DNA of 53,227 nt from Lachnospiraceae bacterium (lineage in GTDB: Bacteria; Bacillota; Clostridia; Lachnospirales; Lachnospiraceae), in contig FUZG01000014.1 of NCBI GenBank assembly GCA_900168235.1, positions 60,350 to 113,576 on the forward strand, written 5' to 3'. Below the pieces are notes generated by a model. The model was not told where the DNA came from. It saw only the letters and a list, made by a program, of their open reading frames with translations, and did no database searches. Made by a program: the position numbers and the translations under genes. Shown here in pieces: positions 14,226 through 20,488 of this stretch (its first letter is position 1; every line of letters begins with the position of its first letter).

Positions 14226-14646
14226 ATAAATAGTCCTCTTTTCTCCACCGTAATACGATGGTCAAAATTTTGAAGGGTTACGTATCACTGCCGATCGCGC
14301 AGACCGGTAAAATCTCGTTAAGCCATTCATATTAAATTGTACATGTGAAAAATTTAACTTCTTGTATTTTTTTAAATACAATCTTGAAATATGCACATAA
14401 TTTTAAGTTTTACCCCCTCTATGTTAAAAATTTATCACAATATGGTAATATTTCAAGTTTTTTTACTCATTCAATTTCACTATTTATAACCGTATTTAAT
14501 GTGAAAATATTAACACTTTATCCAATCACAATATTAAAGTGTATTCTCATTTACCGGAGTAAGCCGTAAGTGAGCGACAATAATCTCTCTTGCCTAAATT
14601 TCCTAAAACAGATAACATAAGTAGAAAAAACAAGGAAACTGATAAT
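14226..14646. other. A+T-rich intergenic region between pta and the XRE gene
   Basis: No gene is seen. A perfect hairpin TTGTATTT / AAATACAA is at 14362-14381 and a CACTTTA / TAAAGTG inverted repeat spans 14513-14541. At 14551-14583 a stretch reading TTTACCGGAGTAAGCC then GTAAGTGAGCGACAATAA resembles the right end of the family B element (TTACTGGAGCGAGCTGTAAG...), suggesting an old, decayed copy. Promoters for both flanking genes must lie here, but I cannot place them with confidence. Confidence 0.4.
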
Positions 14647-14889
14647 ATGAATCCTGTATTACGTAAAAAATTCGGCGAAGCCGTAAAAAAAAGCCGTGAT
14701 GAACACAACCTCACAATAGAGGCTCTGTCCTCACAGCTTGAAATTGATGCGGAAGTACTCCGCTCCATCGAAGAAGGAACATACGACGCACAGTTCGATA
14801 CATTCCTTCCCCTTATTTGGGCTCTTGAGATCAAGGGCGACACTTTAGATGAATTGATGAAAGCGGAATCCGAGGAAGGCTCATTTTAA
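14647..14889 (+). CDS. Small XRE-type helix-turn-helix protein
   Basis: An 80-residue protein consisting almost entirely of a Cro/C1-type HTH ('FGEAVKKSRDEHNLTIEALS', then 'LEIDAEVLRSIEEGTYDAQ'). I prefer the ATG at 14647, with AAGGA 10 nt upstream, over an upstream ATG at 14590. It converges on the DUF4132 gene, whose stop is only 8 nt away. It is a likely DNA-binding regulator; the target is unknown. Confidence 0.7.
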   Translation: MNPVLRKKFGEAVKKSRDEHNLTIEALSSQLEIDAEVLRSIEEGTYDAQFDTFLPLIWALEIKGDTLDELMKAESEEGSF

Positions 14890-14897
14890 ATAATTCC

Positions 14898-17800
14898 TCA
14901 GAATAGCTGTCTCAGTATTTCCGGGTCTTTTATCTTGTCATCTGCCGCAAACATAAGGACTTTCGTCATGATCTCGGCAGTCTTCGGATCTTCATCAACA
15001 TACGGCAGGAAGATCTTGCTCTTCCTGCTGCCATGAACGGCAACGATGTTTATCTGGTGTCCGCCCACCTTGTGGATCACACCGCTTCCAAGGTGTATCC
15101 TGTAATCCCCTTTCTTTCCTGATATCAGCGCATGCGTACCATCGAATGTCACATTTGATATGCCAAAAAGCTGAAGATTGAAGCCCAATACAACTTTTCG
15201 CATTTCTATAGTAGAATGGCTGGTCTCAGGGTCAACTCCGCCGGGATGCGCAAGACTCACGGTGAGATCTACATCACGCATGGTCTCGGAATAAACAATA
15301 TCCGGCACGTCCTTGATCTTTATGGATTTCCAGTTTTTCCTGTCCTTAAAAGATACCAGCTCTATAGCAGGTTCTTCGATATCAGCAGGCGAGAACCAGT
15401 CCGCCGCAGCATAGATCTCCATTATGATATTGTCTTTGAAATCGACTTTCTCAAGACCATCCTCATAATCAACGATCCAGCGCCGTCCCTGAAGACAGGC
15501 GATTGCTTTCTTCGGCTGTATCTGATATCCGGCAAACATCCGTGAATCTGTCTTTTCCAGCTCTTCATCAAGCTTCACATAAAGCTCGCGGAAAACCTGA
15601 CGGAATGGCTGTTTTACCTTGCCGTCATTATATCTTTCAAAAAATCGCTTCTGAAGCTCTGTCCACTTACCTGCTTTATACATATCATAGGGATGCGCGA
15701 TCCTGACTGTGTCATCCCTATCACTGCTGTCCTTATCTTCCAGCAGGAAAAGCTCTCCGCTCTTAGTGCTGATAAGGACCAGATTACCTATGATGCTCCG
15801 CAGTACAGGATTTTGATCCAGTACAAAGAGCTCTCCCAGTTCATAAACTTCACGGTCTTCCATCGACCGTTCGAGCATCTTTACAGTACGGCTATACTGC
15901 TTTGTGAGCTTATCCTTAAATCCCTTTATCTCCAGAAAATCCTCATTTTTCTTAAGTGCAGAAGGTATAGTCTTTAGCTTCTTTCCTGCTTTCTCGATTA
16001 TCAGCGCAGATTTTCCCTCAGAGTTCACCTCGATATAGACGCTATACTCTCCGATCTCTATACCGTCAAAAAATCTGCTGTTGACGTTTGCGAGCTCTGT
16101 TTCCATGGCAAGCGTCAGACGCATGTCATCTGCATACCCTGCATTTGTGGCGAGATTCTTAAGGGCGATATTTACTGCTTCCGCTTCTGATGCACGGCGC
16201 TGTGCGCCAAACTGTCTGCTTTCTTTCAGAAACTTCTGCAAAAATTCGTACCTTTGCAGCATGTCTTTCTTATCTGAAATAGGGATCAGACCGAGACTCA
16301 TCACAAGATCCTTATTTCTCTTGTCATCTACAGCTGTCTCTATCTCCTCTGCGCTAACCCGCCCGATAGCAGCATCTGCATACTTACGCGCTCTCTGGTG
16401 CTTTCCGCCGTCTGAGATATACTTTGCAGATTTATAGATCTTGTCAAAATTCTTTTCGCCAAGCTCCTCATATACGTCCTTAAACCAGCTCAGATCAAAG
16501 CATCCGTCCCTCAGCTCCTCGGAAGTCAATGGCGTATATCGTGCGATGATCGCCATACGCTTTTCGTCAAACCACTCATTCATGTGTGCCATGAAATAGT
16601 AACATCCGCTCTTAAAGCCCTTGATTCCCAGATATCCTTCGATAAGGTCGATCCACGCCGGAGCAAACATTGCCACTTCAAAGAGACGCTTTTCCTTTAT
16701 ACCGTTCTCTTTTACGGCACGGCGAAACTCCTCTGCTGTTTCTCCCGGCGCAGGTGCAGAGACTCTGAGAAGGTGGCTCAGCACCTCTTTTTTGGAATCT
16801 CCCACGCCCCAGCTCCAGCGGTTTCTGTCAAGCGTCGAGTCGCCCAGCGCATTAAGGATCTCCATTAATCTGCTGATTCCGCGCACTGTACCTATCTGTG
16901 TTATACGACTTGAGAAGATTGTCGGCGAATCTCCTCTCCTAAGCTCGACTTTTAGGATCATATCAGTCAGTTCCTGATAAATCTCCCGTCCTGCCTTTAC
17001 GATCGGGAGATCATCCGCGATTTCCTTATCGTCTGATATACCGGCATGCCGGCGGATTCGGCTTTTCGTATAAATTGAAAAGCTTCCATCCACAAATTCT
17101 GACAATTCTTTTAATGCATCCTTATCTGCAGTCCACTCAAGAATTACTCTGTGAACGTATTGCTTTGGTATGAGCCCTTCACAATAGGCGTGCAGATAAT
17201 ATATAATATCAAGCTTTCCGCCTTCTTTGTTTCTGCCGTACTTCGTCAGGTGATCCTTATAATGCATCCTGTACTCATATGCCATAAGCCAGGGCGCTAT
17301 CTCCTTAAATGAATCATCAAGATAATATGTTCGTGCAGAAGCAAGAAGCGTCCTTATTCTGCAATCATCCATAATATCTATCTTGTCAAAGTGATCATAA
17401 GAACCTGGTTTACGAGGCTGCAGCCATAACTCACTTTCAGGGACCTTAAGTACAAAATATTGCAGTATAGATTTCATGACATCAACAGGAATCCTTGTAT
17501 CCGTTTTATCATTCAGATCCTTCAATATCGAAATAAAGATATCAAAGTTCCACATGCCGTACTTGAAAGGTTTATACCCTATTTTTAATTCATTCTCCCG
17601 AATTATATATTCCAAGTTCTTTCTGTACTTTTTATAATCATCCTGAGTAACCTCATCCTCAGAAATATATCCGGACCCCCGGAGATAAAACTCAAGAAGG
17701 ATGACCTCTTTTTCATCGATCTTATTATCCTCGTAATACTTTTTCCAGAGATCCTTAAAAGGATAGTGGTCACTAACACTCTTTCCGTCATTCCACGAGA

Positions 17801-19937
17801 TCATATGAAGATGCTCTCCTGACATATCGCCAAGACGATGTTCTTCACCACTGCTATCTCTGTATTCAAGCTCAGCATTTTCGTCGATCAGCGCTGTAAG
17901 CCTGTCTAGAAGTTCATGCATACGCTTTTTCGTTGTATTAAAGTACTTTTTAAAAGGTTCCTTTTTTAAGAGGCCATAGGGGTATTTTTCATTAATCGGA
18001 AGAGCTACCTTTTCAGGATCATAAAGTCCGAACCCCGGAAGTTCCAGTGGATCATCCTTTGAAACATGATCTTCTGAAGTTCCAACTATATCATCAATGA
18101 TGATCCTTTCTTCGTTGTCAGCGCCTTCTATACTGCGTATAGCCTCAAGTATGGTCTCCTTATTCGCGATCTTTTCCTGATTTTCACGAAATATATCCAT
18201 TCCTCCGAGTCTCATCATTTTATCCCCGGATGATACAAGCCTATACACAGAATCATGCAGACCATCAGGCTTCTGCTTCTTAAGTATGTCTATGACGCCT
18301 GTGCGAATATCTCCAAGCTTATATCTCAGAAGTTTTTCTATCTCAACGTACTCATCATCCCTGAGATCAACCTTTTCGATAAGCATGCAAGCTGTACCTC
18401 TCGTTGATGAGCCCCTGTTTGCGAGACAACTTATCAATGTTCTCCGCTGAAATTCTGCTTTCGGATTATCAACACAGATCATAAGCGCCCGGTTCCTGCG
18501 CTCCTCATCATCATTAATATCGTCAAGGTGATCACAGACGTACTCTTTCATCGCGGAATCGCTAAGACCGCCTGCAATATATGCCATTCTTCCGAGTATC
18601 ATGCCTTTTGTGAGCTTCGCTGAGAACCACGGAAAAACAAACGGATCCACCACGATCTTTTTCTTAGGAAGCTTTTCAAATATCCCCTTAAGGATCTCAT
18701 AATGCCGTCTCGCCTGATCTTCACTCGTAAAATACGTGCTGATACTCACTTTATTGTCATAGGCGTAATTCGGCATATAGTAAGGGATATACGCCATTAC
18801 CACATCCTGATCATCCCCGGCTCTTTCAATGACACTGCGTGCCACGCGATTTTTATACACACTCCGGTCAAGGCTATAAAGATAATAGGATGCTGCAAAT
18901 TTCTGCTGTCGTGTGCCGTGAGATGCTATTTTCTCGATCTCAGCACAGACATCTTCTATGTCATAAAATCCTATGCTCCAGAGGCCTATGTTAATATGGA
19001 CAGCATCATCGCTTCGTAAAAAGCTTTCCGCCATTTCTCTATCATGTATTGCAAGGCGGATATCATTCAAAACTTTCTCAATAACTCGTCTCGGGTCCTT
19101 CTCTCCTCCGACTCCGGTCCACGTGGCAACAGCTCTCGCAACCGCAGCAAACCGTATGAGGTTATTATCAATGATGGTATCAAGGATCTTTACAAAGGCT
19201 TTCGCTGTACCGCAGTCCGCATTTTCGCAGATACTCTGCCTGATTCCTTCTGAAAGCCTTGCAGCCAGCAAAAATTTGCACAGAAGCTCATGCATCTCAT
19301 AATCATCGGACTTTACCACAGCGCGTATCATACTGCGTGTCACTGCCACTGTATTATTCTCACTCATGACCGCATCGCGGATAGCACCGATAACACCCTG
19401 ATCTCCGGCATCTATCCTCGCCATGATGATGTCTTCCACATCGACTGTGTTTACTTTCTTTCTCCACCATCCAAAGCTGTTATCGTACTTATAACAAACC
19501 TTGTCCTCAGGCATCCTGTCACGGATAAATCCCTCGACATCAGTTCCCCAAAAGCCAAAATCAGCATAGCTTAAAAGCAGGTGGAAGAAATCCTCCAGAT
19601 AAGGTCCATAATCGGAAGTTCTCACACTTCTCCTGTTGTAGCCGTAGGAATATGTGAACTGATTACGTTTTCTGATTATGTGATAAAAATCTACCCGAAA
19701 TTCTTCCGGTACCATGAGATTTATCACATTTACATATTTCTTAGCCCATTTATCAATGTCTAAAACCTGTACATACTTATATTCTTCATCTATTTCACCA
19801 AGATCTCCTCTTGTCAGAGCTCGTACAATTTTTTGATCCGATAAACTGAGTCGGCGGATAGCGGCATCATTTCTTTTGATCCACTGAGCCCTGTAGTTAT
19901 CAGACATTTCCTCCATTATTTTATGATTTAATCCCAT
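14898..19937 (-). CDS. Giant DUF4132-family protein (1679 residues)
   Basis: A very large cytoplasmic protein without signal or membrane segments. The N-terminal two thirds is alpha-helical and repeat-like (DUF5724/HEAT-like). Around residues 1245-1420, 'EAEAVNIALKNLATNAGY' and 'WTELQKRFFERYND...QPFRQVFRELY' match DUF4132 (PF13569). The last ~125 residues ('HPGGVDPETSHSTIEMR', 'LGSGVIHKVGG') match the conserved end block that accompanies DUF4132, which I recall as DUF7737. GGAG lies upstream of the ATG. The gene follows a small ubiquitin-like protein by 12 nt. No catalytic motif is recognised. E. coli MolR-type relatives have no settled function. Confidence 0.8.
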   Translation of the reverse strand: MGLNHKIMEEMSDNYRAQWIKRNDAAIRRLSLSDQKIVRALTRGDLGEIDEEYKYVQVLDIDKWAKKYVNVINLMVPEEFRVDFYHIIRKRNQFTYSYGYNRRSVRTSDYGPYLEDFFHLLLSYADFGFWGTDVEGFIRDRMPEDKVCYKYDNSFGWWRKKVNTVDVEDIIMARIDAGDQGVIGAIRDAVMSENNTVAVTRSMIRAVVKSDDYEMHELLCKFLLAARLSEGIRQSICENADCGTAKAFVKILDTIIDNNLIRFAAVARAVATWTGVGGEKDPRRVIEKVLNDIRLAIHDREMAESFLRSDDAVHINIGLWSIGFYDIEDVCAEIEKIASHGTRQQKFAASYYLYSLDRSVYKNRVARSVIERAGDDQDVVMAYIPYYMPNYAYDNKVSISTYFTSEDQARRHYEILKGIFEKLPKKKIVVDPFVFPWFSAKLTKGMILGRMAYIAGGLSDSAMKEYVCDHLDDINDDEERRNRALMICVDNPKAEFQRRTLISCLANRGSSTRGTACMLIEKVDLRDDEYVEIEKLLRYKLGDIRTGVIDILKKQKPDGLHDSVYRLVSSGDKMMRLGGMDIFRENQEKIANKETILEAIRSIEGADNEERIIIDDIVGTSEDHVSKDDPLELPGFGLYDPEKVALPINEKYPYGLLKKEPFKKYFNTTKKRMHELLDRLTALIDENAELEYRDSSGEEHRLGDMSGEHLHMISWNDGKSVSDHYPFKDLWKKYYEDNKIDEKEVILLEFYLRGSGYISEDEVTQDDYKKYRKNLEYIIRENELKIGYKPFKYGMWNFDIFISILKDLNDKTDTRIPVDVMKSILQYFVLKVPESELWLQPRKPGSYDHFDKIDIMDDCRIRTLLASARTYYLDDSFKEIAPWLMAYEYRMHYKDHLTKYGRNKEGGKLDIIYYLHAYCEGLIPKQYVHRVILEWTADKDALKELSEFVDGSFSIYTKSRIRRHAGISDDKEIADDLPIVKAGREIYQELTDMILKVELRRGDSPTIFSSRITQIGTVRGISRLMEILNALGDSTLDRNRWSWGVGDSKKEVLSHLLRVSAPAPGETAEEFRRAVKENGIKEKRLFEVAMFAPAWIDLIEGYLGIKGFKSGCYYFMAHMNEWFDEKRMAIIARYTPLTSEELRDGCFDLSWFKDVYEELGEKNFDKIYKSAKYISDGGKHQRARKYADAAIGRVSAEEIETAVDDKRNKDLVMSLGLIPISDKKDMLQRYEFLQKFLKESRQFGAQRRASEAEAVNIALKNLATNAGYADDMRLTLAMETELANVNSRFFDGIEIGEYSVYIEVNSEGKSALIIEKAGKKLKTIPSALKKNEDFLEIKGFKDKLTKQYSRTVKMLERSMEDREVYELGELFVLDQNPVLRSIIGNLVLISTKSGELFLLEDKDSSDRDDTVRIAHPYDMYKAGKWTELQKRFFERYNDGKVKQPFRQVFRELYVKLDEELEKTDSRMFAGYQIQPKKAIACLQGRRWIVDYEDGLEKVDFKDNIIMEIYAAADWFSPADIEEPAIELVSFKDRKNWKSIKIKDVPDIVYSETMRDVDLTVSLAHPGGVDPETSHSTIEMRKVVLGFNLQLFGISNVTFDGTHALISGKKGDYRIHLGSGVIHKVGGHQINIVAVHGSRKSKIFLPYVDEDPKTAEIMTKVLMFAADDKIKDPEILRQLF

Positions 19938-19949
19938 TACAGATTCTCC

Positions 19950-20366
19950 TTACCAAAGTCTTCCTGCCATCATTGTGAGCTTTATAAAAGTGATCTCCGT
20001 GTCCTGACCTATATGCAGGACTTCTGTCAAACTCTCTGCCTTGTGATCACCCACAAATAATACGGTCACGCCATCTTCAAAGCTTTCTACCGCGTTCTTT
20101 TTTGCAGTTTCCGGATCAGGAAGCTTTAGACCGTTATTTGTATCAAAATCCACCCTTCCTGCGGAAGCCCTGTCCTTTATTTCCTGCTCGGTAAGGACTT
20201 TTATGAGCTCTGTCTGCTCTTTTCTCTCTTTATACTCATGAAGCGTATGCTCCACCATAAACTCCAGAAATTCCCGAACAGTGACCCCCTCGGAAAAATC
20301 CCTGTCGATAACTTTTGTCTCTATGATCCTGTTCCCTTTAGTGATGCTCTTTACATTTATCTTCAC
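19950..20366 (-). CDS. Ubiquitin-like (beta-grasp) small protein partner of the DUF4132 protein
   Basis: A 138-residue protein. The start is GTG at 20366 with GGGAG 7 nt upstream. Its first residues, MKINVKSITKGNRI, resemble ubiquitin (MQIFVKTLTGKTI). Its last part, 'VLFVGDHKAESLTEVLHI' then 'GQDTEITFIKLTMMAGRLW', resembles ubiquitin's 'LIFAGKQLEDGRTLSDYNI' then 'QKESTLHLVLRLRGG'. A helix ('TVREFLEFMVEHTLHEYKER') and a ~45-residue insert lie between. There is one glycine three residues from the end instead of a terminal GG. I infer a beta-grasp fold. It is co-transcribed with the giant gene. YukD-like or a simple adaptor fold are alternatives. Confidence 0.6.
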   Translation of the reverse strand: MKINVKSITKGNRIIETKVIDRDFSEGVTVREFLEFMVEHTLHEYKERKEQTELIKVLTEQEIKDRASAGRVDFDTNNGLKLPDPETAKKNAVESFEDGVTVLFVGDHKAESLTEVLHIGQDTEITFIKLTMMAGRLW

Positions 20367-20450
20367 GCACGCTCTCCCTTTTGTACAAATGTTAATACAA
20401 TCATAGCATAATAATTTTAAGGTTTTATTAAGAACGAAATAAACAGCAAA

Positions 20451-20488
20451 AAAGGTGCACTGCGGCTCTTCACCATCAGTGCACCTTT
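20451..20488 (-). terminator. Terminator of the HPr-like gene
   Basis: A 12-bp perfect stem (AAAGGTGCACTG / CAGTGCACCTTT) with a 14-nt loop and a T run on the minus strand, 26 nt beyond the HPr-like stop. It separates this gene from the ubiquitin-like/DUF4132 pair downstream. Confidence 0.9.

Follow-up and report, generated by a model that had tools for sequence, protein, structure and literature searches.

Introduction

Bil and CBASS cap2/cap3 are bacterial ubiquitin-like conjugation operons, short gene sets with a ubiquitin-like component or one that handles it. A likewise short operon is described here from a 53,227-nt stretch of a Lachnospiraceae genome (GCA_900168235.1, contig FUZG01000014.1, positions 60,350 to 113,576; hereafter the window): a gene for a small ubiquitin-like protein directly upstream of the gene for a giant DUF4132 protein. 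Unlike Bil and CBASS, the pair has no E1 (ThiF) or JAB match on its contig, C10 in our numbering (E2 was not part of the search). With MoaD, ThiS and SAMP the small family shares a predicted beta-grasp fold, a C-terminal L-x-G tail and, in some phyla, a terminal GG; it differs from them in a helical insert that carries invariant residues of its own, in giving no PF02597 match, and in having a DUF7737-DUF4132 protein as its steady partner, with no ThiF-family match on the contig.

A homologous pair, DRA0165-DRA0166 of Deinococcus radiodurans (SEP068184), has published expression and knock-out data. drA0165-drA0166 is listed among the putative DdrO-controlled operons, its operator standing at -83; mitomycin C raises the level of DRA0166 protein in wild-type cells, an effect not seen in an irrE mutant; and DUF4132 may be involved in molybdopterin biosynthesis (PMC8533742). 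Deletion of DR_A0165 led to a higher antioxidant capacity, higher catalase activity and stronger expression of katA (PMC9650054). All four tagged pull-downs of DRA0165 shared 157 proteins, Trx1 binds DRA0165, and structure prediction placed MoaD-type proteins and SAMP1 closest to it (PMC9650054). The first-pass annotation of the window had credited its two genes with no described function. This has to be amended in the light of the Deinococcus data, although neither paper, in the parts available, describes a ubiquitin-like/DUF4132 system. Nor do the available parts of the DUF4132 literature describe the pairing as a ubiquitin-like system, and no article naming DUF5724, DUF7737, PF18991, PF24879 or PF13569 was found within one limited paper collection.

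The small proteins of the two pairs are 31% identical over the aligned part and the giant DUF4132 proteins 29%. The Deinococcus genes are 2 nt apart and those of the window 12 nt; DRA0165 ends in GG and the window protein in GRLW. The Deinococcus pair has an upstream DdrO operator (RDRM), whereas no such site with fewer than three mismatches was found in 300 nt upstream of the window pair.

Results and discussion

The small gene lies at 19950..20366 on the minus strand and encodes 138 residues, from a GTG start to a C-terminus reading ...ITFIKLTMMAGRLW, with AGRLW as the last residues. Its giant neighbour (14898..19937, minus strand; 1679 residues) starts 12 nt after it, so that the open reading frame (ORF) positions bear out the location, start codon and spacing first reported. 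Three domains of the giant protein, all encoded on the minus strand, scored over their Pfam cut-offs at 1026, 117 and 108 bits respectively: DUF5724 (residues 48-1278; 16104..19796), DUF4132 (residues 1318-1487; 15477..15986) and DUF7737 (residues 1577-1678; 14904..15209). The DUF4132 domain is part of a structural model (m07456e3f14f5) with a pLDDT of 86, and DUF5724 profile positions of about 469-614 resemble HEAT-like alphaRep repeats in sequence.

The first-pass annotation had proposed a two-gene beta-grasp/DUF4132 system, to be checked by a survey of DUF4132 loci for the same neighbour and to be doubted should the genes fail to co-occur in related genomes. A scan of the genomes of 84,980 species gave 93 relatives of the small gene, and 80 were retained. 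At 69 of these 80 loci a same-strand giant gene begins no more than 200 nt downstream; with gene starts taken as those of the longest ORF, 14 of the adjacent pairs overlap and 18 are 1 nt apart. Among the other 11 loci, that of L048 has its giant gene at a distance of 2.4 kb, and each of the 10 further genomes has DUF5724 over cut-off. The DUF5724 check was positive in 14/14 genomes, in G148 over cut-off as a short piece only. Among 145 relatives of the window genome the small gene was found in six, and the same six have DUF5724 over cut-off, with the two genes on different contigs in G066; two further relatives, G040 and G094, have DUF5724 at E≤0.001 but below cut-off. These relatives were searched with a single query sequence and the cyanobacteria discussed below with a profile, so that distant copies in the relatives could have been missed. 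The protein distances of the two genes are correlated over 60 loci (Mantel r 0.89, reached by none of 999 permutations). The genes thus co-occur far above chance, which, with the predicted fold discussed below, supports the two-gene system.

Homologous pairs occur in at least six phyla. According to record titles and taxonomy lines, most carriers are Bacillota and the others are Bacteroidota (Parabacteroides, Bacteroides), Planctomycetota, Cyanobacteriota (Scytonema), Deinococcota and Pseudomonadota (Novosphingobium). No other gene cluster, as judged by eye from unannotated neighbours, stood at one relative place in more than four loci, and no fusion of both genes into one ORF was seen in the table of loci. 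By tblastn, the giant protein had no match in phages and the small protein none in viral contigs. Some loci depart from the simple arrangement. L019 (258-10752) has a single ubiquitin-like gene between two giant DUF5724-DUF4132-DUF7737 paralogues; at L147 (6304-6783) a GG-tailed ubiquitin-like gene has no adjoining giant gene, and a second pair, of a short type, lies on another contig of that genome. In L152, L063 and L095 the ubiquitin-like gene is open and the giant gene is in pieces, through sequencing error or decay.

The pairing with a DUF4132 protein, as first claimed, is real, but the link is to the C-terminal DUF7737 module and not to DUF4132 as such. In 145 genomes of Scytonema's class, DUF4132 was found in 19 and the ubiquitin-like gene in 14, all of them among the 19. 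Six of the 14 have as partner a short DUF4132 protein without DUF5724, of about 830-880 residues in the five that are intact; the sixth is L152, with its broken gene. When these 19 genomes were combined with nine DUF4132-bearing relatives of the window genome, the ubiquitin-like gene was present in 20/20 with a DUF7737 C-terminus and in 0/8 without, where G066 is counted as a carrier through its unlinked copy and the profiles used (A7 and A9) include some of the sequences counted. The Pfam DUF7737 model agrees: it matches the window protein and those of L148, L151, L153, L099 and L098 and finds nothing in the L231 to L238 DUF4132 proteins. The other two DUF4132 genes of G060 gave no A9 match. 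An exception comes from outside both samples: Nonomuraea, of the Actinomycetota, has DUF4132 with DUF7737 and no ubiquitin-like gene in the 13 kb read. The counts of 20/20 and 0/8 show that the partner of the ubiquitin-like gene is the DUF7737 branch and not DUF4132 in general.

The branch without DUF7737 (the WGR-DUF4132, MoxR AAA and DUF5682 type, to which the E. coli yeh genes presumably belong) shares the DUF4132 domain with the window's giant protein. Unlike the window pair, it is without the ubiquitin-like gene in all eight genomes found. Pfam WGR was matched in L231 and HEAT_2 over cut-off in L235; in the subset of neighbours scanned, AAA_5 lies beside L231 and L233 and DUF5682 beside L232. 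By eye, an AAA gene was also seen beside the DUF4132 gene in L232 and L236. The window pair has neither hallmark: its giant protein has no WGR domain at E≤1, and no AAA or DUF5682 gene was seen by eye among the adjoining ORFs.

Both window genes are under purifying selection. Against two close relatives the ratio of non-synonymous to synonymous substitution rates was 0.05 and 0.12 for the small gene and 0.09 and 0.09 for the large one, and all three plus-strand frames over 19950..20366 contain stops (2, 3 and 11).

An AlphaFold model of the small protein has the topology beta-beta-alpha-(helical insert)-beta-beta-beta, a grasp arrangement predicted with modest confidence (pLDDT 67). Among the matches listed its nearest folds are MoaD and ubiquitin, and all 50 matches listed by VIA-align are to what we take to be ubiquitin-like-fold domains. 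The resemblance to ubiquitin first read from the sequence is therefore supported by the predicted fold but is not detected by Pfam: no Pfam or NCBIfam family matched the small protein, and Pfam, NCBIfam and PDB sequence searches, whether started from the single protein or from profiles A2 and A7, yielded seemingly chance matches only, among the matches listed. PF02597 (ThiS) matched neither the window protein nor six relatives at E≤1, and was absent among the best 25 of 54 weakly matching families, the portion considered in that search. The prediction is not of a confident fold of another kind, which the first-pass annotation had named as grounds for abandoning the idea.

The insert of about 45 residues in the first description is real and holds six of the seven residues invariant in the family, G70, N91, A92, E97, D98 and G99. 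The seventh, G135, is in the tail and is invariant in the 81 sequences of alignment A2, in which the rows of L073 (by its ORF) and of L036 and L094 (by trimming) are short at the N-terminus.

The residues that follow G135 in the 80 loci are RxW or RxY in 60, W in eight, nothing in two, a single G, A or R in one each, and other short endings in seven. The ending G-R-x-W occurs in 58 of the 80 and GG in one. GG was found in every copy read from cyanobacteria (15/15) and Deinococcus (3/3) and in one from Novosphingobium. The window protein itself lacks the C-terminal GG of conjugated modifiers; the early caution that its AGRLW end leaves conjugation uncertain was right for this lineage, and other phyla do have the GG.

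The genomes of carriers were also examined for conjugation machinery. The window genome holds ThiF-type E1s, ThiS and JAB proteins, so conjugation may occur there, and E1 and JAB are not in the same locus as the pair. In three Bacillota carriers among its relatives, G066, G143 and G147 (tail GAMC), a single ThiF-family protein passes the cut-off in each; its best-scoring model is TcdA, a tRNA enzyme, whose own curated cut-off it does not reach. G143 has one further ThiF-family match, below cut-off. Two of the three, G066 (tail GW, 96% complete) and G143 (tail GRMW, 99% complete), have no ThiS or Prok-JAB match at E≤0.001. A usable E1 was thus not found in every carrier genome. Since three carriers have only a TcdA-like match over cut-off, and two of them show no ThiS or Prok-JAB, the function common to the whole family is probably independent of E1-driven conjugation. 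On C12 of the window genome (L172, L163) a ThiS-like stretch heads a 484-residue ORF with a ThiF match, and a JAB match lies beside it. The ThiS-like protein ends in GGGQ (GGGAY and GGGR in other genomes), which suggests a separate sulfur-carrier set with tails that perhaps need trimming.

How, then, might the two proteins work together? The reading we lean towards is that the pair is an operon for one machine, in which the small protein is a non-covalent ubiquitin-like subunit, docked through its LxG tail close to DUF7737 on a scaffold that is HEAT-like in part. Non-covalent docking is favoured on three grounds: most copies have a conserved aromatic peg as their tail beyond G135, some carriers seem to lack an E1, and thioester chemistry would find no conserved cysteine in the giant protein. 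In alignment A3, which joins the window's giant protein with two from plasmid records and 34 of 61 listed (37 in all), no cysteine is invariant or even 90% conserved. It is unlikely, by comparison, that the small protein acts, in the way of SAMP or Ufm1, as a conjugated modifier, served by an E1 and a protease from elsewhere in the genome, with the giant protein as receptor, target or ligase-like factor. The GG lineages would be ready-made for this, and in Bacillota the RxW tail would first be cut off to expose G135, a residue that is invariant whereas the tail beyond it varies. The free GG of the cyanobacterial, Deinococcus and Novosphingobium copies read fits such a modifier, as do the 157 proteins that co-purify with DRA0165 (PMC9650054), and the window genome has ThiF-family proteins, two Prok-JAB proteins and, in GGGQ, a residue past the glycines of its ThiS-like protein. 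However, those ThiF and Prok-JAB matches are on C12, C13 and C28, away from the pair; no third gene cluster stands at one relative place beside it in more than four loci; and three carriers have only a TcdA-like ThiF-family match over cut-off. Conservation of RxW in distant relatives, Bacteroidota included, is unlike a throw-away propeptide, and C-terminally tagged DRA0165, which would have no free GG end, still pulled down the 157 common proteins (PMC9650054).

The GG could instead be thiocarboxylated by MoeB or ThiF, the small protein acting as a MoaD/ThiS-type sulfur carrier that feeds an enzyme site in DUF4132-DUF7737. MoaD is among the closest folds here and, independently, for DRA0165 (PMC9650054), and the suggested role of DUF4132 in molybdopterin biosynthesis (PMC8533742) would agree. 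HHalign comparison with ThiS/MoaD relatives brought the last strands into register with E-values of 0.003 and 0.011, but with probabilities of only 4 and 10%, and homology to ThiS/MoaD is too weak to claim from it. PF02597 at E≤0.001 matches two other places in the window genome and misses the small gene, most Bacillota copies lack the second glycine, and again the pair has no recurring third gene in a set position, which together make a sulfur carrier quite improbable. It is also improbable that the small protein serves the giant one as a chaperone or regulator and has no ubiquitin-like biology, its beta-grasp look being accidental. The modest confidence of the model, and the lack of a match to a known ubiquitin-like family noted above, would allow this. 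The matches listed by VIA-align speak against it, as do the independent prediction of MoaD-type proteins and SAMP1 for DRA0165 (PMC9650054) and the GG tail in three phyla, placed where ubiquitin and MoaD have theirs.

Regulation of the pair was examined in the upstream regions. The RDRM is exact at 7917-7935 of L096, upstream of DRA0165, as listed in PMC8533742; the D. psychrotolerans pair is likewise preceded by an exact copy, and the D. ficus pair by one with two mismatches. PMC9650054, in the part available, states that DR_A0165 has no RDRM and is confined to Deinococcus. The first statement disagrees with the operators found at these three Deinococcus pairs and the second with the relatives found across phyla. 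In 80 upstream regions (79 loci and the window), CGAACN4GTTCG with up to two mismatches was observed in 10 against 6.3 in mononucleotide shuffles, GAACN4GTTC with up to one mismatch in 12 against 6.9, and the RDRM with up to two mismatches in one against 3.0. SOS regulation in Bacillota was considered and set aside, the motif excess being at most slight. The best boxes upstream of the window pair have four mismatches to the SOS box and three to the RDRM.

At the window locus a Shine-Dalgarno-like AGGGAGA, read by eye, precedes the GTG start (20373..20379, minus strand). A Rho-independent terminator at 20448..20488 (minus strand), belonging to an upstream gene named HPr-like by eye, sets that gene apart from the pair, as first reported. 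Its hairpin (about 20488..20448) folds with -28.7 kcal/mol and a z-score of -6.8, and 0/200 shuffles folded as well; a simple scan did not list it. At the other end, a small helix-turn-helix-like gene (by eye; 14590-14889, plus strand) converges on the end of the giant gene. The window pair had no match in PADLOC-DB, a library of known anti-phage systems dated 2023.

Conclusions

In the non-covalent machine that we favour, the small gene would supply a subunit of ubiquitin-like beta-grasp fold, its helical insert peculiar to the family, and the large one a long scaffold with HEAT-like repeats in part, followed by DUF4132 and DUF7737. The small subunit would bind the large one without a covalent bond, its L-x-G tail most likely serving as a docking peg that fits a site within DUF7737 or adjoining it, and once bound it would switch or assemble the scaffold. 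The Deinococcus pair points to a possible role in the stress or DNA-damage response.

The work shows a ubiquitin-like family outside the Pfam models to be the constant companion of a single branch within a widespread giant-protein family of unknown function. That branch is marked by one domain, DUF7737, and three DUFs become testable together. Two separate Deinococcus papers, one on an orphan stress peptide and one on a DNA-damage operon, are joined to a general bacterial system, whose ubiquitin-like protein ends, depending on the phylum, in GG or in a conserved aromatic tail.

A bolder proposal, which we regard as possible rather than probable, is that DUF7737 is the receptor or processing module for this unnamed ubiquitin-like protein. 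The pair would then be a signalling device free of E1, E2 and E3, found in at least six phyla and wired to DNA-damage control in Deinococcus, with GG and RxW as alternative states of a single docking peg. If this is true, GG and RxW would provide a natural test of a ubiquitin-like tail moving between covalent and non-covalent use.
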